The translations under genes were made by a program, and so were the position numbers. A stretch of DNA of 38,830 nt from Desulfobacteraceae bacterium (lineage in GTDB: Bacteria; Desulfobacterota; Desulfobacteria; Desulfobacterales; RPRI01): NCBI GenBank assembly GCA_011391695.1, contig JAABQB010000026.1, positions 1 to 38,830 on the forward strand, given 5' to 3'. The first letter of the stretch is position 1. Each line of letters starts with the position of its first letter. Under the pieces are notes generated by a model, which was given only the letters and a program-made list of their open reading frames with translations, did not search any database and had not been told where the DNA came from. This document shows, piece by piece, positions 1 to 35,845 of the stretch.

Positions 1-218
1 TGCCGGCCGACCTCGACCAGTTTCGGGGAAATAATTCACATGGAACAGTCGTTGGTTGGAAACGTCTTGTCAAGCTGGGCCATGGCGCCGCCGATGGCCG
101 GGCTTTCTTCAACAAGGTAAACATAGTATCCGGCCTCAGCCAGATCCAGAGCCGACTGCATACCCGTGATACCACCGCCCACAACCAAAACAGATCCTAC
201 CGTATTCTTGTTGTTCAT
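1..218 (-). CDS. hdrA: HdrA-like selenoprotein, 5' part only (runs off left edge)
   Basis: This is the start of a heterodisulfide reductase subunit A-like flavoprotein, which moves electrons between FAD and Fe-S clusters in soluble Hdr complexes. The first 60 codons give a Rossmann FAD-binding motif ([14 protein letters not shown], about residues 10-23) and end in TFPTNDCSM. The next codon is UGA (36-38), and the same frame continues [11 protein letters not shown] to the window edge, exactly as HdrA proteins continue after their NDCxxC motif. UGA is therefore read as selenocysteine 61, replacing the second Cys. A hairpin just downstream (3-20) fits a bacterial SECIS. The start ATG (216-218) follows AGGAAGAGGAAT, a good ribosome binding site. 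Seventy-two residues are visible. Whether the rest is a full HdrA or only a short module like the gene at 33210-33605 cannot be told from this window. Confidence 0.88.
3..20 (-). promoter_or_regulatory. bacterial SECIS hairpin of the left-edge hdrA
   Basis: On the transcribed strand, CUGGUC and GGCCGG can form a 6-bp stem closing a GAGGUC loop, with the loop starting 21 nt after the UGA at 36-38. The GGUC in the loop resembles the apical loop of the E. coli fdhF SECIS. The 18-nt hairpin is identical to the one in the second hdrA gene (33387-33404). Confidence 0.7.
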
Positions 219-23510: not shown

Positions 23511-23828
23511 TTAGACGCATCCTGTCGGTTTAGGAAGACCGGCCATTTTACATGCTCCCTTACCAGGACCTGAGGGGAAAAGCTCGTAAATATGCTTCAG
23601 TTTAAAACCGGTAACTTTAGAAAGAACACGAACCATCGGGGCAATTCCGTTTTTCTCATAATATTCGCGGAGTACCGTGATAACCTGCTGATGTTCCGGG
23701 GTCAATTCATCGATGCCCTCTTCCTTTTTAACATACTGAACCCAATCCTGGCTCCAGTTGGTATAGGAATCAATAAAACCATCTTCGTCCACAACAAACG
23801 TTTTTCCACCAAATTGTACATCCGGCAT
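23511..23828 (-). CDS. dsrC: DsrC-type sulfur carrier protein
   Basis: A 105-residue protein of the DsrC/TusE family. It carries both conserved C-terminal cysteines, Cys93 and Cys104, separated by ten residues (GACKMAGLPKPTGCV), the hallmark of true DsrC. In sulfate reducers DsrC accepts sulfur from sulfite reductase DsrAB as a trisulfide that is then reduced by a membrane or soluble partner. AAAAGGAGGAAATTCA precedes the ATG, a near-ideal ribosome binding site. It follows flxA by 146 bp with a possible promoter of its own (23905-23931) and ends at a strong terminator. Its place after the Hdr/Flx genes suggests the complex may interact with it. Confidence 0.93.
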   Translation of the reverse strand: MPDVQFGGKTFVVDEDGFIDSYTNWSQDWVQYVKKEEGIDELTPEHQQVITVLREYYEKNGIAPMVRVLSKVTGFKLKHIYELFPSGPGKGACKMAGLPKPTGCV

Positions 23829-23904
23829 TGAATTTCCTCCTTTTCGTTTAATTATTTTCTCGGCTTACAGCCTGTTTTGCCTTTGGTAAATGTCAGGGGT
23901 TTCA

Positions 23905-23931
23905 TTAATATCATTAGGTCTTCAATGTCAA
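23905..23931 (-). promoter_or_regulatory. Possible dsrC promoter
   Basis: TTGACA (23926-23931, minus strand) is followed after 15 bp by TATTAA (23905-23910). The -35 is perfect but the spacing is short, so confidence is moderate. It would let dsrC be expressed independently of the long operon. Confidence 0.35.
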
Positions 23932-23974
23932 CATAAAATATGATTTAAACTGTCCGGGCTTTTTTACGAAGCCG

Positions 23975-24820
23975 TTAGTATTCCCTTGGTGTTGCATTAA
24001 GCTGTGCAAGAGTGAAAACAGGGCCGTCCTTGCAGACGAATTCCTTACCAATATTGCACCTTCCACACATACCTATTCCGCATTTCATCCTGTTTTCAAG
24101 AGACATTATTATCTGGTCATGCCCGTATCCAAGCTTATCAAGAACAGGCTGGGTAAACTTGATCATTACAGGAGGCCCGCAAATAATTGCATATGTATCA
24201 GCATCAGCGCTGGGAGCTTTCTTTTCTGTTATTGCAGGCACAAAACCGACATTATATTTCCAGTCAGGATCATTTGCCGCATCAACCGTGATATGCATAT
24301 TTATGTCATCGCGCTTTTCCCATGCGGCAAGCTCATCCCTGTATAGAAGCATGCCGGGTGTTCGTGCGCCATATATCACATTGATATCTTTGAATTTCTT
24401 GCGGTTAGCCGGATCCAGCATGAAAATTATTGAAGAACGTAAAGTCGTAAAGGCAAAACCGCCCCCTATTATAACCACGTTTTTCCCCTCCAGAGTATTC
24501 CATGGATAGGAATTACCAAGGGGTCCCCTGATGCCCATGATATCTCCGACCTTCATTGAATGAAGATATGAAGATACAAGCCCGACCTTGTTTACCGTAA
24601 ACTTTACAAACCCCTTTTCAGTGGGAGAGGAGGCAATCCCTATCGGAATTTCCCCTTTGCCCGTCACCGAAAGCTCCGCGAACTGCCCGGCCCTGTACGA
24701 AAATTTATCTTCATCCCCGGGGTTTAAAAAAACAAACTTGAATGTTTTAAGATTCCTGTCTTCCGTTTCCGTTATTATTTCATCTATACTTACAGGATAA
24801 GGCATATATGGATTTAGCAC
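23975..24820 (-). CDS. flxA: FlxA-like FAD/NAD(P)H-binding [2Fe-2S] oxidoreductase
   Basis: A 281-residue flavoprotein of the ferredoxin-NADP reductase fold. It has an FAD-binding beta barrel (YRAGQFAELSVTG; IPIGIASSP), an NAD(P)H-binding Rossmann half (VVIIGGGFAFTTLRSS; AIICGPPVMIKF) and a C-terminal [2Fe-2S] set, CGIGMCGRCNIGKEFVC. It resembles FlxA and the gamma subunits of sulfhydrogenases and sulfite reductase AsrB, and would pass electrons between NAD(P)H and the FlxBCD-Hdr chain. The start is GTG 24820 after AAAAGGGGGG. It lies 18 bp after flxB. Confidence 0.87.
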   Translation of the reverse strand: MLNPYMPYPVSIDEIITETEDRNLKTFKFVFLNPGDEDKFSYRAGQFAELSVTGKGEIPIGIASSPTEKGFVKFTVNKVGLVSSYLHSMKVGDIMGIRGPLGNSYPWNTLEGKNVVIIGGGFAFTTLRSSIIFMLDPANRKKFKDINVIYGARTPGMLLYRDELAAWEKRDDINMHITVDAANDPDWKYNVGFVPAITEKKAPSADADTYAIICGPPVMIKFTQPVLDKLGYGHDQIIMSLENRMKCGIGMCGRCNIGKEFVCKDGPVFTLAQLNATPREY

Positions 24821-24838
24821 TTTAATACCCCCCTTTTA

Positions 24839-25906
24839 TCACTTTACTGGGCAAGCGCAGGCTTTTGGATCATAACTGTTCATCATGTCACAGACCCTGC
24901 GTATATCAATGTTAACCGGACAGGAGCGAATGCAGCGGCCGCAGCCAACGCACTGAATTCCATTATCATACTTGTCGACGTAATATTTCAGTTTATGCAT
25001 GAATCTCTGGCGGACCCTGTGGAGCTTTGTTCCCCTCGGATTGTGTCCCGTGCCGTGATTTGTAAAAAGAGGAAACATGCAACTGTCCCAGTTTTTCATG
25101 CGCACACCCGAACATCCGGAATTTTCATCCTGGATATCGAAACACCAGCATGTGGGGCAAAGATACGTGCATGTTCCGCAGTTGATACAGGCAAAAGAAA
25201 CATCTTCCCAAAAAGGAGCTTCATAAAGCTCTGTTGTCTTTTTATTTTTAAGCTGGTCTGTTAAAATGGAAGAGCTGATTCTGGCCTCGGCCTCTTTTTT
25301 AAGAGATTCTATTTTTTTAAGAGAGCCGCCGGCCGCAGCTTTACTCCATCCGGCTGCATTTAACAGCTTTTCTCCTTTTTCCGTAATTGCTTTCGCATAC
25401 CAGCAGTCTCCGGCATCGGAAAGGAGTATGTCAAGGCCCTCTTCATTGAAAGGACCCGATCCGGCTGTTGTGCAAAAGCAGGTGCTGCAAGGGTTATTGC
25501 AGGCAGCGCCGATAAATGTCGTTGCTTCATATGCCCTTATCCAGTAAGGATCCCTATATTCCGGCGTATCGAAATTGCGTTTTACAAGAAGAAATGCCGA
25601 TGCATCGCAAGGCCTGATTCCCAGAACTGCTCTCGGAGAATAGTTTTTTGCGGCATCCTTCATTATATGATGATCGGAATCTTTCTCATCAAGAGAATAT
25701 TCAAACATAATCTCGGATTGCGGATAGACAATTGATTTAGGAGAAAGGCGTGTGTTTGAAAAATTCAGGTCTGGCAATTCCCCTTTTCCAAGCTCCTTGA
25801 AATCATGAAATTTTTCACCCTTGACCGGACCGAATAGCCTGTAACTATCCTGGATCTTTTTAATTCCGCCCGTCCAGTCCTTTTTATCGATTTTAATAAC
25901 CTTCAT
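24839..25906 (-). CDS. flxB: FlxB-like 2x[4Fe-4S] electron transfer subunit
   Basis: A 355-residue iron-sulfur protein resembling FlxB, sulfhydrogenase beta and anaerobic sulfite reductase subunit A. The C-terminus carries two ferredoxin-type sets, CINCGTCTYLCPTCWC and CVGCGRCIRSCP. A further cysteine cluster lies in the middle, CNNPCSTCFC. It would relay electrons between FlxA and FlxC/FlxD. ATG follows AAGGCTATTTCT. A 157-bp spacer holding a large hairpin and repeats separates it from flxC, unlike the tight spacing elsewhere in the operon. The B and C names follow the usual gene order and could be exchanged. Confidence 0.8.
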   Translation of the reverse strand: MKVIKIDKKDWTGGIKKIQDSYRLFGPVKGEKFHDFKELGKGELPDLNFSNTRLSPKSIVYPQSEIMFEYSLDEKDSDHHIMKDAAKNYSPRAVLGIRPCDASAFLLVKRNFDTPEYRDPYWIRAYEATTFIGAACNNPCSTCFCTTAGSGPFNEEGLDILLSDAGDCWYAKAITEKGEKLLNAAGWSKAAAGGSLKKIESLKKEAEARISSSILTDQLKNKKTTELYEAPFWEDVSFACINCGTCTYLCPTCWCFDIQDENSGCSGVRMKNWDSCMFPLFTNHGTGHNPRGTKLHRVRQRFMHKLKYYVDKYDNGIQCVGCGRCIRSCPVNIDIRRVCDMMNSYDPKACACPVK

Positions 25907-25926
25907 AGAAATAGCCTTATTTATGT

Positions 25927-26050
25927 TACGGGTTATAGATAGGCTTTTAGGCTGTAGGCTGTTAGCTAATCCGCCAAACAGTGTGGCGGACAGCCTAACA
26001 GTCTTCAGTCTAACAGCCTTCAGTCTAAACTTCTGCGTTCATCTGCGTAA
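25927..26050. repeat. Repeat-filled spacer with large hairpin between flxC and flxB
   Basis: CTGTTAG (25959-25965) pairs with CTAACAG (25995-26001), with an inner TCCGCC/GGCGGA stem (25970-25975 with 25985-25990). The flanks are 7- to 8-bp drifting units such as GTAGGCT and CAGTCTT. It is transcribed within the operon and could affect expression of the genes below it. Confidence 0.6.
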
Positions 26051-26063
26051 GTCTGTGGCTTAA

Positions 26064-27011
26064 TTATTTAATAAAATCCCCCGGATCACCCGGTTTGAAT
26101 GTATCAAGCGGCGGTCGCTGATCCAATGATAATCCAGCTTCCCAGCCGAACATATCCAGGCAGTCCCTGTTTAGCTTACTCGTGAACTGCCTGATTTTTA
26201 TCCCCACCGGACACGCCCGCTCGCACGCACCGCAGTCTGTGCAACGGCCTGCGCAATGATAAGCTCTTAAAAAATGGAAAGTCCTTATGTCGATCGGATC
26301 CTGGCTTTTCCCTACCCACTGAGGACGGGCTTCATCCACAAAGCATGTCGGGCAGTAGCAGAGAGGACATGCATTCCGGCAGGCGTAGCATCGAATACAG
26401 GGAGAAAGGAGATCTTCAAAATACTGCCATTTTTCCTGCGGCGACATTGCCTCGATAAGCCTGACATCGGCATACCGGTCAATATCTTTCTGCTCTTCCA
26501 CAAGAGGCGCCGCCAGTTCATCGTATAAAACGGGATTTCTATGAATGCATTTGGAGCAGTTATCCTGAAGGATTTCCGCTTTTTTTAATTTTTTCTCGAA
26601 TCCTGTGCCTTTAACGGTAATTACATCTCCTTCTTCTGTGACCTCCCGAACTTCGTCATCAAACATCGCTGTTATCCTGCGACGGTCAATCATACCCTTG
26701 CAGGGAACACCGATAATCACCAGTTTATCCCGCTTTGTTTTGTTTTCAAGCAGATGGGTCACTATATTTCTGGAATCACATCCCTTGGCAATTACGCCTA
26801 TTTTTTCCTTCCTGTCGGTCAGATAATTGGCAAGGTTTATTCCGCAGTTGCTGTCCCACACCAGAGTTGATACTTCACCGGGTGTTTTTACGAAAGCAGG
26901 CTCGTTCATCATGGGCATGGTCCCTTTACGGAAACCTATAACCATATCCACCCTGCCTTCATCCAACAGCCTTTTTGATATTTCTCTTATCTTATCAATA
27001 TATCCTAACAT
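26064..27011 (-). CDS. flxC: FlxC-like [4Fe-4S] subunit (FrhB/FdhB-like)
   Basis: A 315-residue iron-sulfur protein. The N-terminal two thirds resemble the F420-dehydrogenase/FdhB-like beta family (KIGVIAKGCDSRNIVTHLLE; DKLVIIGVPCKGMIDRR; DNCSKCIHRNP). The C-terminal third has ferredoxin sets CIRCYACRNACP with CYCPTC, and CTDCGACERACPVG. It is the usual partner between FlxD/MvhD and FlxB in Hdr-Flx complexes. ATG 27011 lies one base after the flxD stop, with AAGGTAG inside flxD as the ribosome binding site, so the two are coupled. The last codons read DPGDFIK. Confidence 0.82.
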   Translation of the reverse strand: MLGYIDKIREISKRLLDEGRVDMVIGFRKGTMPMMNEPAFVKTPGEVSTLVWDSNCGINLANYLTDRKEKIGVIAKGCDSRNIVTHLLENKTKRDKLVIIGVPCKGMIDRRRITAMFDDEVREVTEEGDVITVKGTGFEKKLKKAEILQDNCSKCIHRNPVLYDELAAPLVEEQKDIDRYADVRLIEAMSPQEKWQYFEDLLSPCIRCYACRNACPLCYCPTCFVDEARPQWVGKSQDPIDIRTFHFLRAYHCAGRCTDCGACERACPVGIKIRQFTSKLNRDCLDMFGWEAGLSLDQRPPLDTFKPGDPGDFIK

Positions 27012-27495: not shown

Positions 27496-30400
27496 CTACA
27501 TTGCTTCGTTCAGCGCGGTGATCTGCGCAAATATCTGATCGTTGTCAAAGCCTTTCAGCCGGATTGCCCCGGATCTGCAGGACGCCACGCAAAGCCCGCA
27601 GCCCTTGCACAGCACCGGATTGATCTGGGCCTTTCCCGGGTTGAACCGGGCAGTTTCTTCGACAAACGACGGCGCGGAATATGGGCATATTGATACGCAT
27701 ACGCCGCACGAACTGCAGGTGGCCGGAACAACTTCGGCCACGTTTCCGCTGGTATGAATGGTTTTCCTGGCCAGAAGGGTGACAGCCCGGGATGCGGCGG
27801 CCTTGCCCTGAACTATTGACTCATCAATAGGTTTTGGATAATGGGCCATACCGCAGAGAAATACGCCGTCTGTCGCAAATTCAGACGGACCCAGTTTGGC
27901 ATGTCGCTCAACGAAAAATCCGTCGGAGTTCATCGGAACCTTGAAGAAATTGGCAAGCTTTTCATCCCGGTTCGGAACGATTGCGGTAGCCAGGGTGATC
28001 AGATCGGTTTCTATTTCAAGCGGAGTTCCGAGGATGTGATCCATAATCTTAACCGAAAGTTTACCGTTGCTCAGGCTGACTTCCGGTTTTTTATCCATTG
28101 AATACCGGATGAAGATAATGCCTTTTTCCCGCGCCTCTTTGAACAGATACTCCCTTTCTCCGTAGGTTCGGATATCCCGGTAGAGCAAATATATATTCAT
28201 GCCCGGATTCATCTCTTTCAGGGCCAGCGCATTGTCGATGGAATGGGTGCAGCAGACCCGGCTGCAATAAGGACGATCCGGTTCCCTTGATCCAACGCAC
28301 TGAATGAACACCGCGGACTGAAGAGATGAGAGCGAAGAATCTTTTTCCATGAATTTTTTATCCAGCTCAAGGCTGGTAACAATCCGGGAATCCTCGCCAT
28401 AATGGTATTCCGTCGGCTGATAGGCAGATGCCCCGGTTGCCAGGACAGCCACGCCATGTTCCACAACGATTTCCTGCCCGGCAGAATTCAGGGTGGATTT
28501 AAAACTCCCCACAAAGCCGTCCATCTGAACCAGTTCGGCATTCAGATGAACATGAATTTTGTCGTCCTGATTTACATCCTGAATAAGAATGTCAAGCTGC
28601 TGCTGAATATCTTCGCCTTTGGCCGTCCGATAAAGATTTCTGGCCTGGCCGCCCAGGTTTGAACTCTTTTCAACGATATGGGTTTCATACCCCTGAAGCG
28701 AGAGACTCCTGGCCGCGGTCATTCCTGCAATGCCGCCGCCAACCACTAAAGCCGAAGACTTGATCTGAAGTTCCGCTTCAGCCAGAGGCATCGTCAGAGC
28801 CACCTTGTAAACCGCGGATCTAATCAAATCTTTGGCCTTTTGCGTGGCCAGATCCGGATTGTTTTTATGGACCCATGAGTCATGGTTTCGAATATTGGCC
28901 ATCTCAAAAAGATACTTGTTCAGACCGGCGTTTGTAAGGGTCTCCTGGAACAGGGGCTCATGTGTCTTGGGAGTGCAGGCCGCAACAACAACCCTGTTTA
29001 ACCCCTCCCTCTTGATTATCTGTGCCATGTTTTCTTGCGTGTCCTGAGAGCAGGAATAGAGATTGTCGGTAGCATATTCCACGTAAGGAAGGGTCGCCGC
29101 ATATTCCGCTACGGATGGAACATTGACGACACCGGCTATGTTGATGCCGCAGCGGCAGACAAAGACGCCGATCCGGGGCCGTTCACCAATAACATTGGTT
29201 TCCGGAATTATTTCCTTGGCGCGGGTCAATGTATTTCTCGCTTCGGCCAGAATCTCCCCGGCAGCAGACGCAGCGGCGCTGGAATCAATTACAGACTGGG
29301 GGATGTCCTTGGGACCCTGGAAAGCCCCGCACACATAGATTCCGGGCCGGGAGGTAGCCACTGGTTCAAATGTGGTGGTTTTACAGAAATTGCCCGGAGT
29401 CAGTTCGATTCCAAGATTTTTTGCCATGCCGACCACTTCCGGGGATATTTCCATGCCGACAGACAACACGATCTGATCAAATTTCTCTACGACACTTTCG
29501 CCGCTTTCAGTGATATAACGTATGCTCAGATCATCGGTTCCCGGAACCGGCTCGATGGTATGTACCCGGCTGCGGATGAACCGCACCCCGTGTTTGTCTT
29601 TGGCCGTGTTGTAAAAACGCTCGAAGTCTTTTCCATGGGTCCGCATGTCCATGTAAAATATGGCGCAGTCGAGATCGCTTCCGGAATGTTCCTTGGCTAT
29701 TACTGCTTCCTTGATGGCATACATGCAGCAGACCGAAGAGCAGTAGGCATGATCGCATTTGTTCATATCACGGGAGCCGACACACTGGAACCAGGCTATT
29801 TTCTTTGGTTCCTTGTGATCCGAAGGGCGAACCAGATGTCCTGCAGTTGGGCCCGAGGCGGACAGAATCCGCTCCATTTCCATGGCAGTAATGACATTTG
29901 GATGTTTGGAGTATCCATATGAATCGAATTTTGACGGATCAAAGGGCTGATATCCCGGTGACAGAATGATGGAGCCGACATTCAGTTCGACTACTTCATC
30001 CTGCATTGTGTGGTCAATTGCATTAACTCCGCAGAATTCAGTACAGACCTTGCATCCGCCTGTTTTAAAATGCATGCAAACCGACCGGTCAATAACCGGA
30101 GTATTTGGAACGGCCTGGGCATAGGGAACATAAACGGGCTTGCGGCCCTTCAGCCCCATGTCATACTCGGATGGAATGAGTTTGAAACTATTTTTAGTGA
30201 CACTGCTTCGTATTTTTTCAAGGGTGATGTGGCCGGTGGGGCAGACCGATGCACAGGCCCCGCAGGCCATGCAGACATCCGTCTGGATATGAAACGGGGT
30301 ATCCACTTTCATATCGACACCACGTCCGGTCAGACTGATGGCGCTGTTCCCCATTTTCGTGCAGATCCGCGTACACAGACCGCAGAGAATACAGGTGTCT

Positions 30401-30759
30401 TCCTCTTTTTTGAACCGGGTCTCTGTAATGCCGTATTTTTTACCCAGTTCTTTCAGGATCGGCACATCCGGACATCTCGCCATCAGAAGCTCGACAATCA
30501 GTTTCCGGCCCTGGTGAACAGGCTCGGAATCGGTTTTCACCTCCATGCCTTCCCAGATCGGATAATTGCACGAAGTGACAAACCGGCTTCGACGGCCATC
30601 AAACAGCTCTACCGTACACAACCGGCACATGCCGGCCGGTTCAAGTGCCTTGTGATGACAAAGGGTAGGAATTTCAACCCCGTATTTCTGAGCGACTTGA
30701 AGAATATATTGACCTTCTTCGCCCTGAACGGTTTTACCATTGAGTTTGAATGTTATCAT
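27496..30759 (-). CDS. NuoG-like N-terminus fused to tandem HdrA, 1087 residues
   Basis: A very large flavin/iron-sulfur subunit. Residues 1-78 are a NuoG-type [2Fe-2S] domain (Cys34, 45, 48, 64). Two ferredoxin-like sets follow, CILCGLCTRIC near 140 and CMACGACASVCP near 183. From about 210 the sequence is HdrA from the point after its first ferredoxin (YVPYAQAVPNTPVIDRS; CKVCTEFCG), lacking the preceding Rossmann and Cys/Sec segment. From about 527 a second HdrA repeat begins (RIGVFVCRCGINIAGVVNV) with a Rossmann FAD motif [12 protein letters not shown] but no NDCxxC motif. The C-terminus has CSSCGVCVSICP and CKGCGLCVASC. It would be the central electron-splitting subunit with NuoEF and FlxABCD. 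Confidence 0.87.
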   Translation of the reverse strand: MITFKLNGKTVQGEEGQYILQVAQKYGVEIPTLCHHKALEPAGMCRLCTVELFDGRRSRFVTSCNYPIWEGMEVKTDSEPVHQGRKLIVELLMARCPDVPILKELGKKYGITETRFKKEEDTCILCGLCTRICTKMGNSAISLTGRGVDMKVDTPFHIQTDVCMACGACASVCPTGHITLEKIRSSVTKNSFKLIPSEYDMGLKGRKPVYVPYAQAVPNTPVIDRSVCMHFKTGGCKVCTEFCGVNAIDHTMQDEVVELNVGSIILSPGYQPFDPSKFDSYGYSKHPNVITAMEMERILSASGPTAGHLVRPSDHKEPKKIAWFQCVGSRDMNKCDHAYCSSVCCMYAIKEAVIAKEHSGSDLDCAIFYMDMRTHGKDFERFYNTAKDKHGVRFIRSRVHTIEPVPGTDDLSIRYITESGESVVEKFDQIVLSVGMEISPEVVGMAKNLGIELTPGNFCKTTTFEPVATSRPGIYVCGAFQGPKDIPQSVIDSSAAASAAGEILAEARNTLTRAKEIIPETNVIGERPRIGVFVCRCGINIAGVVNVPSVAEYAATLPYVEYATDNLYSCSQDTQENMAQIIKREGLNRVVVAACTPKTHEPLFQETLTNAGLNKYLFEMANIRNHDSWVHKNNPDLATQKAKDLIRSAVYKVALTMPLAEAELQIKSSALVVGGGIAGMTAARSLSLQGYETHIVEKSSNLGGQARNLYRTAKGEDIQQQLDILIQDVNQDDKIHVHLNAELVQMDGFVGSFKSTLNSAGQEIVVEHGVAVLATGASAYQPTEYHYGEDSRIVTSLELDKKFMEKDSSLSSLQSAVFIQCVGSREPDRPYCSRVCCTHSIDNALALKEMNPGMNIYLLYRDIRTYGEREYLFKEAREKGIIFIRYSMDKKPEVSLSNGKLSVKIMDHILGTPLEIETDLITLATAIVPNRDEKLANFFKVPMNSDGFFVERHAKLGPSEFATDGVFLCGMAHYPKPIDESIVQGKAAASRAVTLLARKTIHTSGNVAEVVPATCSSCGVCVSICPYSAPSFVEETARFNPGKAQINPVLCKGCGLCVASCRSGAIRLKGFDNDQIFAQITALNEAM

Positions 30760-30778: not shown

Positions 30779-32632
30779 TTATCGAATCACAATTGCGTCA
30801 AATTTGCAGGTATCATAGCAGATACCGCATTTGATGCATTTGGACTGGTCGAGTGAATGCGGCTTCTTTTTATCGCCAGCGATCGCCTCCTGCGGACATT
30901 TTTTGGCGCAACTGCGGCAGCCGGTACAGGTTTCCGGATCGATTTCATAATGAAAAAGCGGTTTACAGACGCCTGCCGGGCATTTTTTATCCCGGATATG
31001 GGCTTCATATTCATCCCGGAAATATAAAATCGTGGTCAGAACCGGGTTTGGCGCGGATGTTCCCAGACCGCAGAGCGAGAACCGCTGAATCATGACGCCG
31101 AGCTCTTCCAGCATCTCGATATCACCTTCCTTGCCGTTTCCCTGACAGATGCTGGTCAGGATCTCGAGCATCTGCTTGATGCCTTCCCGGCAGGGATTGC
31201 ACTGGCCGCAGGACTCTTCCTTAAGAAAATCCAGAAAATACCGGGCCACATCCACCATGCAGGTGTCCTGATCCATGACGATCATGCCGCCTGATCCCAT
31301 GATGGAGCCAACCTTGGATAATTCGTCAAAATCGACTCCCAAGTCGAGAAATCGTTCCGGGATGCAGCCTCCGGAAGGACCTCCGGTCTGGACCGCTTTG
31401 AATTTCTTCTTTTTGGGAATACCGCCGCCGATATCGAAAATGATGGTCCGAAGGCTGGTTCCCATGGGAACTTCCACCAGACCGGTGTTAACCACCTTGC
31501 CGACCAGAGAGAAGATTTTAGTTCCCTTGCTGTGTTTGGTGCCGATCGCCGCATACCAGTCCGCACCGTTGTTGATGATGACCGGTACATTTGCCCAGGT
31601 TTCAACGTTGTTGAGGTTGGACGGGCCATCCTTGAACCCTTTTTCAACCGTGTGAACATATTTTGCGCGGGGCCTGCCCGGGCTGCCTTCCAGAGAGGCC
31701 ATCAATGCCGTGGATTCGCCGCAGACAAACGCGCCGCCGCCGCGGCTGATGTTAATATCGAAATCAAAGCCGGATCCCAGAATATTTTTTCCCAAAAGCC
31801 CGTATTCCCGGCATTTATCCAGCGCAATTGTCAGGTTGGTAACGGCCAGGGGATATTCATGCCTGACGTAAACATACCCGTCATGGGATCCAATTGCGAT
31901 TGCACCGATGATCATACCTTCGATGACGCTGTGCGGATTGCCTTCCAGAAGGCTCCGGTCCATATACGCACCCGGATCACCCTCATCCGCATTGCAGATC
32001 ACATATCGTATGCCGTGATGTTTTCTGCAGGTATCCCACTTGATGCCTGTCGGAAAGCCGCCGCCGCCCCGTCCCCGAAGGCCGGATTTCTTGATCTCGG
32101 CAATGATCTTTTCAGGCGTCATGTCAAAAAGGGTTTTGGCCATGGCGCTGTATCCGTCTACTGTAATATAATCGTCTATGCTGGTCGGATCGATGAGTCC
32201 GTTGTTGCCGAAAATAATGCGCTGCTGCAGTTTGTAAAACGGGATGTCATGCTCAAGGGTTATTTTCGCTTTTGACACCGGATCTTTGAAAATCAGAGAT
32301 TGAACCAGTTCGTTATTCTTTATGGTTTTTTCCACAATTTCAGACATGTGTTCAGGTTTGACCTGGGGATAGAATATGCCCTGCGGATGAATGACCATGA
32401 TCGGCCCTTTTTCGCAAAAACCGTGACAACCGGTCAGCTTGACCTCGACATCTTCCGTCAGATTCTGCCTGGTCAACTCCTCCATCAGGGCATGATGAAC
32501 TTTTGCGGTACCATAGGCGCCACACCCAGAGCCTGCGCAAAGTGAAACCAGTTTCTTTTTGCCATGGGACTGGGCGGATTTGAGTTTGTCCTGAAATTTC
32601 TCCAGGGATTCCCTATTCGATAAAATTGCCAT
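30779..32632 (-). CDS. nuoF: NuoF-like NADH-binding flavoprotein with N- and C-terminal Fe-S domains
   Basis: A 617-residue NADH dehydrogenase subunit of the NuoF/HydB/HoxF type. Residues about 20-115 form a thioredoxin-like [2Fe-2S] domain (CAGSGCGAYG; TGCHGFCEKGP). The NuoF core follows with the NADH/FMN-binding glycines GLRGRGGGGFPTGIKW and the [4Fe-4S] set EESCGQCNPCREG. The C-terminus adds two ferredoxin clusters, CTGCRSCAKKCP and CIKCGICYDTC. This arrangement is like the beta subunit of electron-bifurcating hydrogenases. With NuoE it gives the operon an NADH module. GGAGG lies 12 bp before the ATG. Confidence 0.92.
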   Translation of the reverse strand: MAILSNRESLEKFQDKLKSAQSHGKKKLVSLCAGSGCGAYGTAKVHHALMEELTRQNLTEDVEVKLTGCHGFCEKGPIMVIHPQGIFYPQVKPEHMSEIVEKTIKNNELVQSLIFKDPVSKAKITLEHDIPFYKLQQRIIFGNNGLIDPTSIDDYITVDGYSAMAKTLFDMTPEKIIAEIKKSGLRGRGGGGFPTGIKWDTCRKHHGIRYVICNADEGDPGAYMDRSLLEGNPHSVIEGMIIGAIAIGSHDGYVYVRHEYPLAVTNLTIALDKCREYGLLGKNILGSGFDFDINISRGGGAFVCGESTALMASLEGSPGRPRAKYVHTVEKGFKDGPSNLNNVETWANVPVIINNGADWYAAIGTKHSKGTKIFSLVGKVVNTGLVEVPMGTSLRTIIFDIGGGIPKKKKFKAVQTGGPSGGCIPERFLDLGVDFDELSKVGSIMGSGGMIVMDQDTCMVDVARYFLDFLKEESCGQCNPCREGIKQMLEILTSICQGNGKEGDIEMLEELGVMIQRFSLCGLGTSAPNPVLTTILYFRDEYEAHIRDKKCPAGVCKPLFHYEIDPETCTGCRSCAKKCPQEAIAGDKKKPHSLDQSKCIKCGICYDTCKFDAIVIR

Positions 32633-32650
32633 GATATTTAATAACCTCCG

Positions 32651-33145
32651 TTACGCCGTGCCGTTAAGAGGCATCTGTTTATAATTTTCGATGACCTTCT
32701 CTGCAGCTGTTCGGTCAAGACCGCCATAAGTTTCCTTGTTAACCGTGATGACGGGCCCGGATGCGCAGCAGCCGATGCACCGCACCGCCTTCAGCGTAAA
32801 GAGTCTGTCTGAAGTTGTCTGGCCTTCCTGTATGCCCAGTTTCTGCTGCAGGGCATCGGCTATTTTTTCAGCCCCCCGGACATGACAGGCCGTCCCGGTG
32901 CATACGCTGACGATATATTTGCCCCTGGGTTCAAGGCTGATGGTTTTATAGAAGGTGGCGACGCTGTATACCATACTTATCTTCACGCCCAACCGGTCAA
33001 CCAGAATAGGGATGACTGTTGGCGGGACATGGCTGTAAATATCACTTATATCCTGCATGATCATGAGCAGGGCTTCTTTATTCCCGTGATATCGATCGAT
33101 GATGTTATCGATTTTGCTTAGATCGACTTTAATAGTTTGTTCCAT
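32651..33145 (-). CDS. nuoE: NuoE-like thioredoxin-fold [2Fe-2S] subunit
   Basis: A 164-residue NuoE/HydC-type protein. It begins MEQTIKVDLSKIDNII, has the helical N-terminal region (LLMIMQDISDIYSHVP) and the thioredoxin-like [2Fe-2S] cysteines VCTGTACHVRG and RCIGCCASGP. It partners NuoF in NADH oxidation or reduction. The frame is open further upstream to 33361, but ATG 33145 with AAAGGATTT is the proper start: the extension would be antisense-phase noise overlapping the upstream hdrA gene. It lies 18 bp ahead of nuoF. Confidence 0.92.
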   Translation of the reverse strand: MEQTIKVDLSKIDNIIDRYHGNKEALLMIMQDISDIYSHVPPTVIPILVDRLGVKISMVYSVATFYKTISLEPRGKYIVSVCTGTACHVRGAEKIADALQQKLGIQEGQTTSDRLFTLKAVRCIGCCASGPVITVNKETYGGLDRTAAEKVIENYKQMPLNGTA

Positions 33146-33209: not shown

Positions 33210-33605
33210 TTATGCGGTGCAAACCGTCTGGCACACGACAGGGCAATTTTCCACGCAGGCCCCGCAGCCTGTGCAGAGATCCATTTTGATGCTGCGGGCA
33301 CGTTTGCGGATTTTGACCTTGAAATTTCCGGGTTTTCCCTCAACCGATTCCAAATCTGCATAAGTGATCAATTCAATGTTCAGATGCCGGCCGACCTCGA
33401 CCAGTACAGGGGAGATAATTCACATGGCGCAGTCATTGGTCGGGAATGTCTTGTCCAGCTGGGACATGACCCCGCCAATGGATGGGGATTTTTCAAGCAG
33501 ATATACATAATAACCGGAATTGGCCAGATCCAGGGCGGACTGCATTCCGGCAATTCCACCGCCGACAACCAACACAGACCCGATAACAGGGTTTCCATTC
33601 AACAT
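33210..33605 (-). CDS. hdrA: Short HdrA module selenoprotein (FAD-binding/Sec/[4Fe-4S] segment only)
   Basis: A 131-residue selenoprotein and first gene of the operon. It has a Rossmann motif [18 protein letters not shown], then [12 protein letters not shown] (33420-33422) read as Sec62, then [20 protein letters not shown] and a ferredoxin set [12 protein letters not shown], ending QTVCTA with TAA at 33210-33212. A canonical HdrA would continue for hundreds of residues; here the gene ends just after the first cluster, and the missing remainder is found inside the 1087-residue fusion encoded downstream. ATG 33605 follows AGGAGAAGCTAATC. Its intact ribosome binding site, SECIS hairpin and operon position argue against a decayed gene. 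Confidence 0.9.
33387..33404 (-). promoter_or_regulatory. bacterial SECIS hairpin of the short hdrA gene
   Basis: CUGGUC/GGCCGG stem with GAGGUC loop, beginning 15 nt after the UGA at 33420-33422. Identical to the hairpin at 3-20 although the surrounding sequence differs. Confidence 0.75.
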
Positions 33606-33860: not shown

Positions 33861-35528
33861 TTATGCCGCAAGCCTTACAGCGTTCTCTGCGGCAAAGCGG
33901 ATTTCATCCGGCGTAAAAGGCTTGGCCAGATAACCGACAGCGCCCATCCTTGCGGTCTCCACTGCCGTTTCAATGCTGGCGTAACCGGTAACGATAACAA
34001 CCATTGCCTCCGGTCTGCGCTCACGAATGCTTTTGAGCAGTTCCAGCCCCTTCACCCCCGGCATTTTCAGATCAAGCATGATAACCGGATAGCTGCTTTC
34101 ATTAATTTTTTCAAGAGCCTCTTCCCGGCTGATCGCCTGGTCCACTGCGTAGCCTCTTTTCTCGAGGATTTTTCGGATATTGTTGTTCACGGCCACTTCA
34201 TCATCGATGACCAGAACACCGCGCCTCGATTCATACGGAGACAGGCGCTTCTCGTCTGCTTCCTGTCGAGCCATCAGGGTTGCCGCATGCTGCCTGATTT
34301 CTTCGTATGAATAGACAACACTTCCTCCGGATTCCAGATGCATCGCATATTCTGCTCCGACTGCAGCTGCCACATCATCGAATACAAACGGCATGTCCAC
34401 ACCGATGAGACGGGATACATCCGGAATGTTCTGTTTTCCGGCTTCGGCCTTTTTCCGGCTTTTTTTCTGGGGACACAGGCTTGTTTTGTTTCCGGCCTTG
34501 CAGGTAGCTCCCAGCTTTTTAAAAATATCGCAGACCATCTCGCCTACCTGGCAGTAGTTCTCAAGTTTTTCAGATATTTTCACCTCAATAATCGGCATAT
34601 CTGAAGGCCCCATCGTCCTGACATAGTCGTCGCCGACGGCCCTGGCCACTTCACTGCGGTCAAACGGCATATCCACATCGATATTTCCGGATGCTTTGCC
34701 CATCATTCGGGCCACGTTTTCCTTCAACTCCTGATAGGAAACGAAAGATACCCCCTCGGAATCCAGATGGGCCAGATATTCCGGTCCGGTTACAGAAACC
34801 ACCTCATCATAATTAAAAGGCATATCGATGCCGATCCATTTGGACCGATCCGGTGCTTCAGCCGTTTTTTTGGAACCGGCTGACTTTTTGGCTGTTTTTT
34901 GAGGGCACAGATGGGACTTGTTTCCGGCCTTGCAGGTTCCGCCCAACTTTTTGAAAATATCACATACCATATCACCGACTGAGCAGTAATTTTCCAGCTT
35001 CTCCGGCATTTTCACCTCGACCACCGGCATATCCGACCGGCCAAGGGTCTTCACATAGTCCTCCCCGGTGTATTTGGCGACTTCATCACTGTCAAACGGC
35101 ATATCGATATCAATGTTAATGGCTTCAATTTCCTTTTCAGAGGTTTTGGCCTCAATCAGGTCGCCGGCCATGGCTTTCCGGACGACGGTTCGCAGCTCAT
35201 CCGGTGTAAATGGCTTGGACACATAATCGAGAGCGCCGAGACGAATGGCCTTCAGTGCGGTATCGGTCGACGCATATGCGGTCATCATCAGCGCCCGGGT
35301 CTTCGGCCACTCTTTTTTAACCTGCTTGAGAAGTTCGAGGCCGTTCATTCCGGGCATTACAATATCTGAAATCATAAGATCAAACGATTCCGTTTTCATC
35401 CGCTCCAGCGCTTCCGCAGCGTTTAGCGCACAGATAACCTCATAATTGTTTTTTGACAGAATTTTTTCGACATTTTGGCAGATTCCCTTTTCGTCATCGA
35501 TGACCATGATTCTTTCCAGCGTACTCAT
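33861..35528 (-). CDS. Dual-receiver regulator with duplicated Cys-containing 'DMPF' modules
   Basis: A 555-residue protein with receiver domains at both ends and no DNA-binding or enzyme domain I recognise. Receiver 1 spans about 5-125 (phosphoacceptor Asp55, Lys105); receiver 2 spans about 434-555 (MLDLKMPG, LAKPFTPDE). Between them is an A-B-A-B repeat. Each A unit begins IDIDMPFD or IDVDMPFD and ends with a conserved C-x6-C-x9-C-x8-C pattern (NYCSVGDMVCDIFKKLGGTC in the first, then LCPQK). Each B unit begins IGIDMPF or IGVDMPF and contains SYQEL or SYEEI. The four cysteines per A unit could bind a metal or sense redox state. ATG 35528 follows AGGAGGAAGCGAT; the longer start at 35579 is rejected. 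It lies between an NtrC-type gene and the Hdr operon. Confidence 0.85.
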   Translation of the reverse strand: MSTLERIMVIDDEKGICQNVEKILSKNNYEVICALNAAEALERMKTESFDLMISDIVMPGMNGLELLKQVKKEWPKTRALMMTAYASTDTALKAIRLGALDYVSKPFTPDELRTVVRKAMAGDLIEAKTSEKEIEAINIDIDMPFDSDEVAKYTGEDYVKTLGRSDMPVVEVKMPEKLENYCSVGDMVCDIFKKLGGTCKAGNKSHLCPQKTAKKSAGSKKTAEAPDRSKWIGIDMPFNYDEVVSVTGPEYLAHLDSEGVSFVSYQELKENVARMMGKASGNIDVDMPFDRSEVARAVGDDYVRTMGPSDMPIIEVKISEKLENYCQVGEMVCDIFKKLGATCKAGNKTSLCPQKKSRKKAEAGKQNIPDVSRLIGVDMPFVFDDVAAAVGAEYAMHLESGGSVVYSYEEIRQHAATLMARQEADEKRLSPYESRRGVLVIDDEVAVNNNIRKILEKRGYAVDQAISREEALEKINESSYPVIMLDLKMPGVKGLELLKSIRERRPEAMVVIVTGYASIETAVETARMGAVGYLAKPFTPDEIRFAAENAVRLAA

Positions 35529-35845
35529 ATCGCTTCCTCCTGTTGAGTGATGGTTAGCAATTAATTGACCTGACCACACTACTAAGCATGTCTTGTGCCA
35601 ATGTTGTTAACATCCTGATATTATATTTGTTTTATTTAATACTACGGCACATCAATGCCCGATTCTGTATAATATTTGTATTAATTTTTCAGTTATCAGT
35701 TATCTGAATTTTAAGTTGTCATCCTGCAGTTATGAAAGAAATATGTGATATTACAAAATGTTATAAACTGGATAGATGTCAATGAGGTAAATGTATAGAA
35801 TAATTATACAGTGTATGAAATAGATGAAGAATCAGGAATCAGGAG
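35529..35845. other. 317-bp AT-rich gap with sigma-54 promoter
   Basis: No gene is apparent. Apart from the sigma-54-type promoter at 35586-35600, the region is AT-rich and could hold upstream activator sites for the NtrC-type protein encoded next door. Confidence 0.5.
35586..35600 (-). promoter_or_regulatory. Sigma-54-type promoter of the dual-receiver gene
   Basis: On the minus strand TGGCACAAGACATGC has a perfect -24 TGGCAC and a -12 ATGC, with GG and GC separated by exactly ten bases. It lies 58 bp ahead of the gene start, and an NtrC-type sigma-54 activator is encoded immediately upstream. Confidence 0.65.

Follow-up and report, generated by a model that had tools for sequence, protein, structure and literature searches.

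We propose that HdrA in this member of the Desulfobacteraceae is made in two associating pieces, a 131-residue selenocysteine (Sec) module and a 1087-residue fusion protein, arranged around an NADH module of the NuoEFG′/Bfu type (NuoE, NuoF, and a NuoG-like domain, NuoG′); judged from sequence comparison, we consider this arrangement likely. Both genes lie in the window, by which we mean the whole stretch of DNA analyzed (38,830 nt; contig JAABQB010000026.1 of assembly GCA_011391695.1, positions 1 to 38,830). The first-pass annotation of this stretch had suggested that the Sec/FAD module acts in trans and rebuilds a complete HdrA with the fusion. That suggestion gains support from the sequences themselves, from the abutment of the two pieces on a single HdrA, and from their co-occurrence across genomes, all of which bear on it by inference. 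In many sulfate reducers, the FAD- and Sec-bearing half of HdrA is encoded by a gene of its own and the remainder is joined to another electron-transfer protein, so that a working site would probably form only once the pieces join.

A free-standing HdrA module encoded by a selenoprotein gene

The module gene runs on the minus strand from 33605 to 33210, stop codon included. It comprises 131 codons with a single in-frame TGA, and its start is preceded by AGGAG. Its features are as follows.

33210 to 33605, minus strand: free-standing HdrA module, 131 aa, with the Rossmann FAD half, NDCAM(Sec), and the first motif of the inserted ferredoxin
33420 to 33422, minus strand: Sec codon TGA, codon 62, at the HdrA Cys197 position (from the translation and the alignment with 5odc_A)
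33387 to 33404, minus strand: SECIS-like hairpin of 18 nt within the coding sequence, with a 7-bp stem and a 4-nt loop (from conservation among Sec rows)
33243 to 33275, minus strand: CxxCxxCxxxC, first half of the inserted ferredoxin (C111, C114, C117, C121), invariant in 33 aligned modules

In the translation, the N-terminal part carries the Rossmann motif GGGIAG, followed by NDCAM(Sec). Module residues 10 to 123 align without gaps to residues 145 to 258 of the HdrA chain 5odc_A (E = 4.5e-41), which confirms the first-pass claim that the selenoprotein spans the HdrA segment from GGGIAG through NDCxx(Sec) to the first ferredoxin motif; U62 falls on 5odc_A residue 197 (145 + 52). The four cysteines of that motif are invariant among the 33 aligned module sequences, which include free, cis (within a longer HdrA chain), and NuoE-fused forms, and conservation stops at the fourth of them. 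In 42 of 42 free modules that precede nuoE, CxxCxxCxxxC[P/L] is followed by a variable tail of 6 to 13 residues and then a stop codon; in the cis HdrA examined, the sequence continues directly from the first motif into the second half.

The beginning of a second Sec HdrA-like gene, truncated by the contig end, lies at window positions 3 to 218 (minus strand). It is 76% identical to the module over residues 2 to 73, and its SECIS element is identical.

The fusion protein resumes HdrA where the module stops

On the minus strand, the genes are ordered response regulator, module, NuoE, NuoF, fusion, FdhB-like, beta-like, gamma-like, and DsrC-like. The part of the cluster that concerns the two HdrA pieces contains the following features.

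32651 to 33145, minus strand: NuoE (BfuC-like), 2Fe-2S thioredoxin fold (PF01257, 1.3e-47; ATG at 33145 taken from the sequence)
30779 to 32632, minus strand: NuoF (BfuB/HydB-like), 617 aa, with FMN/NADH and N- and C-terminal Fe-S domains
27496 to 30759, minus strand: fusion, 1087 aa, with a NuoG-like front, truncated HdrA repeat 1, and HdrA repeat 2
30190 to 30759, minus strand: NuoG/BfuA-like front, fusion residues 1 to 190, with a 2Fe-2S and two 4Fe-4S motifs (9mqx_A, 1.4e-41; Pfam Fer2_4 and Fer4)
29200 to 30177, minus strand: truncated HdrA repeat 1, residues 195 to 520 (residues 195 to 455 correspond to 5odc_A 260 to 514)
30031 to 30078, minus strand: second motif of the inserted ferredoxin (C228, C236, C239, C243), invariant in 18 aligned fusions
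27514 to 29184, minus strand: HdrA repeat 2, residues 526 to 1082 (matches 5odc_A 2 to 234 and 466 to 648)

Placed on one HdrA, the module and repeat 1 abut: the module ends at 5odc_A residue 258 and repeat 1 begins at residue 260. Repeat 1 consists of the second ferredoxin motif and the second half of the thioredoxin-reductase domain; because it matches HdrA only from residue 260, it lacks a Rossmann/FAD start and begins at the module end. As anticipated in the first-pass annotation, this boundary is occupied by a NuoG-like front instead (Fer2_4, Fer4, and 9mqx_A, the best-matching solved NuoG-like chain, over residues 17 to 179), and nuoE and nuoF both lie between the module and the fusion on the same strand. 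A complete FAD site in repeat 1, which that annotation had named as an observation that would count against it, was looked for and is absent; the only FAD start in the fusion is in repeat 2.

Repeat 2 has the N-terminal cluster domain, its own FAD site, and the C-terminal ferredoxin (fusion residues 526 to 757 and 898 to 1082 correspond to 5odc_A 2 to 234 and 466 to 648, respectively), and no cysteine at the Cys197 position in the 5odc_A alignment. In the 18 aligned fusions, C326, C340, C344, and C345 are invariant; they form a QCVGSR...CSSVCC site that we take to be an HdrA cluster site. Module and fusion are thus two open reading frames 2.45 kb apart rather than one HdrA polypeptide, and across the two chains we find GGGIAG, the Cys197 position (here Sec), and the inserted two-cluster ferredoxin, with one ferredoxin motif on each chain. 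Two-cluster ferredoxins have a crossed arrangement, each motif lending its fourth cysteine to the cluster of the other motif. If this rule is valid here, both inserted clusters would be bound by two chains.

Structure models were built for both proteins from shallow alignments (module, 33 rows, pLDDT 74.6; fusion, 18 rows, pLDDT 71.4). HdrA came first in a fold search with the module (5odc_A 143 to 239, Z about 10), with ordinary thioredoxin reductases within about 1 Z. In the fusion model, repeat 2 has its Rossmann strands and helix at 662 to 696, and the first strand of repeat 1 is at 264 to 266. The pLDDT drops below 50 at 190 to 223, 241 to 248, and 253 to 259, around the orphan half-ferredoxin, and also at 134 to 165 and in other stretches; because these other stretches are low as well, the drop near the ferredoxin half is weak evidence. 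The fusion fold search hardly probed repeat 1, since repeat 2 fills the match list.

Genes of the surrounding cluster

NuoF residues 11 to 614 match 9mqx_B (2.4e-236), and its matches to 7t2r_B and HydB are also near full length. Together with NuoE (PF01257), it supplies the BfuBC core, and the fusion front, through its match to 9mqx_A, supplies BfuA. Because NuoF matches Bfu-type B subunits and the fusion front matches 9mqx_A, NuoE-NuoF-NuoG′ is, as far as these matches tell, a Bfu-like module in the sense of PMC9304861.

Four further genes follow the fusion.

26064 to 27011, minus strand: FdhB-like Fe-S protein, probable further subunit (7bkb_E, 4.2e-21)
24839 to 25906, minus strand: sulfhydrogenase beta/AsrA-like Fe-S protein (NF040833, 5.6e-44, below the curated cut-off)
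23975 to 24820, minus strand: sulfhydrogenase gamma/AsrB-like FAD/NAD(P) protein (NF006220, 4.5e-65, below the curated cut-off)
23511 to 23828, minus strand: DsrC/TusE family protein (TIGR03342, 112.6 bits versus a cut-off of 53.5)

The FdhB-like protein resembles F420-type FdhB. A DsrC gene is present in 23 of the 30 loci with a gamma-like gene. Five of the seven loci without it end within 500 nt of the gamma-like gene; the remaining two (L059 and L080) have room for DsrC after the gamma-like gene, yet contain none. The FdhB-like, sulfhydrogenase beta- and gamma-like, and DsrC genes (window 23511 to 27011) accompany split and cis Sec HdrA alike.

Upstream of the module, the response regulator (33861 to 35579, minus strand) has two receiver domains with repeated DMPF...EV stretches between them. 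Of the 32 free-module loci that have more than 2.5 kb of upstream sequence, 11 show a relative on the same strand that ends within 1.5 kb upstream.

Co-occurrence of module and fusion

A protein-pattern scan recovered 559 relatives, the best 80 of which were taken and classified by script. Among these best 80 of 559, we found 42 loci with a free module followed by NuoE, 11 cis HdrA, 11 HdrL-like forms with a long insert, 6 single open reading frames joining module and NuoE, 6 modules alone, and 4 cut loci. The order module-NuoE-NuoF-NuoG′-H1 is present in 34 of the 42 free-module loci; five of the other eight leave the contig, and three (L065, L071, and L077) have only the module and NuoE at that place. 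Three of the six modules classified as alone are Sec modules at contig ends and three are Cys modules, one of them also at a contig end.

In a second survey covering 96 genomes of the order, with the fusion called at E up to 1e-60, the fusion was present in 22 genomes. Among the matches listed for these 22, the module lies just upstream of the fusion in 14, module and NuoE lie elsewhere in 2 (G066 and G067), and the fusion is cut by the contig in 6, two of which have module and NuoE at the end of another contig. A fusion kept after loss of the module, which would have told against a joint function, was found in none of the 16 assessable fusion genomes; all 16 carry the module among the matches listed. 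Short module frames accompanied by no fusion match were seen in G032 (Cys), G051 (Sec, at a contig end), and G046 (with an inner TAA).

The exceptions to strict linkage bear on an alternative, namely, that the module works on its own as a small flavo/Fe-S selenoprotein that shuttles electrons, for example, as a partner of NuoE, and does not complete the fusion. In G066 and G067, module and NuoE stay paired although the fusion has moved away (NuoF and the fusion are 22 kb from the pair in G067, and the fusion is distant on the chromosome in G066), but both genomes retain the fusion. Free Cys modules point in the same direction: they stand beside MvhD and HesB-like genes in L080 and L174 (in L174 also beside MetVF) and beside HdrBC, HGD-D, and BcrA-like genes in L175, with no evident truncated HdrA in the stretch examined at any of these three loci. 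These free Cys modules and the genomes with a module and no fusion indicate that a module can have another job. As an account of the module in the window, however, we regard an independent shuttle as unlikely, given that the module ends exactly where fusion repeat 1 starts, that the half-ferredoxin cysteines are invariant on both proteins, and that related bodies have the module in cis at that very point. Free Cys modules were located at L080 9941 to 10384, L174 8517 to 8903, L175 7973 to 8338, and L173 5179 to 5595.

We find it markedly less plausible still that the module docks on another full-length HdrA, or on repeat 2, in a regulatory or Sec-donating role. The genome has 14 module matches, the module itself counted, and thus other HdrA-like places exist; however, repeat 2 already has a Rossmann half, and gene order and co-occurrence link the module to this fusion.

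Other architectures and their history

Two pieces of a split HdrA around NuoEFG′ are one of several arrangements among the relatives. In the best 80 of 559, the six loci in which module and NuoE form one open reading frame all have Cys and come from Thermoplasmatota, Cloacimonadota, Armatimonadota, and Eiseniibacteriota. L113 has an uninterrupted series of module-NuoE, NuoF, and NuoG′-H1-H2; in L101, L104, and L112 the fusion is farther downstream, and L107 and L114 end before any fusion is seen. The L101 and L104 modules are identical. In the two HdrL-like inserts that were scanned (L076 and L087), we found Fer4_20 and Pyr_redox_2.

Seven full-length Sec HdrA that have the module in cis fall within starred groups of split bodies in a tree of the HdrA bodies (64 rows, quick search, SH-aLRT), from which it follows that split-type bodies also occur with the module in cis. 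Four architecture labels require 13 changes on this tree. At 70 to 75% body identity, module identity was 88.1% for split-split pairs (n = 104), 73.8% for split-cis pairs (n = 49), and 86.2% for cis-cis pairs (n = 10), so that module sequence tracks architecture more than body. This pattern fits replacement of the whole front end, and the cis HdrA are therefore not simple re-fusions. The module tree (88 rows, 123 columns, 10 of 81 inner branches starred) is a hint only. Taken as sequence architecture, these arrangements are consistent with a nuoEFG′ block having entered an hdrA gene at the inserted ferredoxin, the place where HdrL has a Fer4_20/Pyr_redox_2 (GltD-like) block instead.

Selenocysteine and the SECIS element

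Without readthrough, the module frame terminates at the TGA, so that a standard reading of stop codons cuts the gene at codon 62. Among the best 80 of 559 relatives, 42 have a free module before nuoE; 41 of these carry TGA at the Sec site and 1 carries TGT. An 18-nt element 3′ of the TGA, CTGGTCGAGGTCGGCCGG, is shared without change by 56 of 57 Sec rows, the window included; the odd Sec row (L038) holds Ns, and none of the 24 Cys rows has the element. The peptide patterns used to pick the loci leave the SECIS codons out, and the element is unchanged even at synonymous sites. Its predicted fold is a hairpin with a 7-bp stem and a 4-nt loop, and the own genome contains it exactly at 3 places, against 0 for the control. 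Letter for letter, the same SECIS is common to the split, cis, and HdrL forms and to a Chloroflexi record (L099). Against Rfam, the window has no match above threshold, and the surroundings of the module gene have none even with E values of up to 5 allowed.

On conservation, Sec-site codon use, and the SECIS element, we reject the TGA as a genuine stop and the module as a chance open reading frame or pseudogene. Although the gene order is compatible with insertion of nuoEFG′ into hdrA, it is very improbable that the module is a remnant 5′ end of an hdrA broken in this way, nonfunctional or read to the TGA only, since the 42 free modules are 75 to 96% identical to the window module, have only TGA or Cys at the Sec site, keep the 18-nt element identical at synonymous sites, and all stop 6 to 13 residues past the last motif cysteine.

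SelA and SelB are present in the own genome, above cut-off. A tRNA-Sec was not found in the own genome: its Rfam matches were below cut-off, the best two being tRNA-Ser by ARAGORN. In 5 of 10 searched genomes of the genus, the own genome among the 10, tRNA-Sec was above cut-off. When the locus of tRNA-Sec in a sister genome was compared with the own genome, only three matches of 107 to 126 nt appeared, so the gene is probably missing from the assembly.

Comparison with known HdrA systems

The closest structural reference is HdrA of HdrABC-MvhAGD from methanogens (5odc). Module and repeat 1 together cover its residues 145 to 514, and the Cys197 position, the inserted ferredoxin, and the cluster cysteines are kept. 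In contrast to 5odc HdrA, there are two polypeptides here, Sec replaces Cys197, and a NuoG-like front stands in the gap.

In the Bam-Bfu system, HdrA is a whole separate chain (BamE). Like the present cluster, this class II benzoyl-CoA reductase combines HdrA with a NuoEFG-like Bfu module (BamI, BamH, and BamG) in one complex, as PMC9304861 reports. Unlike the Bam complex, the scanned cluster genes (FdhB-, HydB-, HydG-, and DsrC-like) include no tungsten BamB or BamC. The accessible text of PMC9304861 describes no HdrA-BfuA fusion, and the word "fused" is absent from it. Contig C94 of the own genome has a Sec HdrA frame of 1047 aa and, apart from it, a NuoG-like frame of 206 aa.

According to PMC9012536, Cys197 of one HdrA ligates the N-terminal cluster of its partner, and in fused HdrA the losses of the N-terminal domain and of Cys197 complement each other. 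Type II, or fused double, HdrA (ANME HdrA3/4 and Moorella HdrA; PMC9012536, PMC12054007) accordingly share with our system two complementary repeats, one with the N-terminal domain and one with Cys197, but here the Cys197-bearing part of the repeat sits on a separate gene. HdrL, or type III HdrA, with a GltD or NfnB insert (PMC2702500, PMC12054007, PMC9012536), likewise has an NAD(P)H-type module at the inserted ferredoxin; it is a single chain in cis with a GltD-like insert, whereas NuoE, NuoF, and NuoG′ take that place here.

Related gene arrangements are also on record. In the nuoEFG-hdrA-mvhD clusters of Desulfotignum phosphitoxidans, NuoEFG genes share transcription units with hdrA, but the accessible text of PMC4046663 mentions no split or Sec HdrA. 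As early as 2006, hdrA genes whose two ends are separated by an insertion were described (PMC1794560); HdrL and hdrA domains scattered over neighboring genes followed in 2009 (PMC2702500). Both resemble our case in having hdrA interrupted or its domains dispersed in Sec-using Deltaproteobacteria; they differ in that a free Sec module with NuoE is mentioned in the available portions of neither. The 2006 description reads like an insert within one gene, HdrL-like, and the dispersed domains of 2009 are largely explained by separate MvhD, but HdrA3/A3′ of Desulfobacterium autotrophicum could be a true split. In the accessible text of the open PMC literature, we came across no account of a free Sec HdrA module accompanied by NuoE. 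With inserted and dispersed hdrA already on record, the two-piece form is a variant of HdrA, not a separate class.

Proposed assembly and significance

In the assembly that we propose, the module would contribute the Rossmann FAD half, the first half of the inserted ferredoxin, and the Sec at the Cys197 position, and the fusion would contribute the second ferredoxin half, the remainder of the thioredoxin-reductase domain, and the second HdrA repeat. On association of the two, the FAD and both inserted-ferredoxin clusters would be spread over two chains. Because Cys197 serves the N-terminal cluster of a partner HdrA (PMC9012536) and repeat 2 has no Cys197, the module Sec would be the ligand missing from repeat 2 and probably completes its N-terminal cluster. 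NuoE, NuoF, and the NuoG-like front would form a Bfu-type NADH module at the position of the inserted ferredoxin, a placement suggested by gene order and by the module-NuoE fusions. Electrons from NADH, perhaps also from reduced ferredoxin, would reach the bifurcating FAD there and would exit via the C-terminal ferredoxin and the FdhB-like, sulfhydrogenase-like, and DsrC proteins, with direction and substrates guessed. That DsrC and ferredoxin are the partners is possible but somewhat doubtful, and a link between NADH, ferredoxin, and the DsrC pool is a guess. Counting against the two-piece reading are the free Cys modules, the short module frames in genomes with no fusion match, the distant module-NuoE pairs of G066 and G067, the way module sequence tracks architecture, the negative tRNA-Sec search in the own genome, and the middling module model with its close thioredoxin reductase matches. 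The fullest version of the proposal, in which the FAD and two [4Fe-4S] clusters lie across two chains, Sec acts in trans on a cluster of a third domain, selenium supply could act as a switch, and the whole arose from a nuoEFG operon inside hdrA, has in our estimate slightly less than an even chance of being right.

Anaerobes depend centrally on HdrA modules for saving energy, and a naturally two-piece HdrA offers a handle for dissecting the enzyme, as its small part could be omitted, swapped to a Cys form, or labeled. The HdrL, Bam, and split forms may follow one possible rule, by which NADH modules plug in at the inserted ferredoxin. If the fullest version of the proposal is true, one electron-bifurcating machine is threaded through another, and the selenoprotein could switch the complex with selenium supply.
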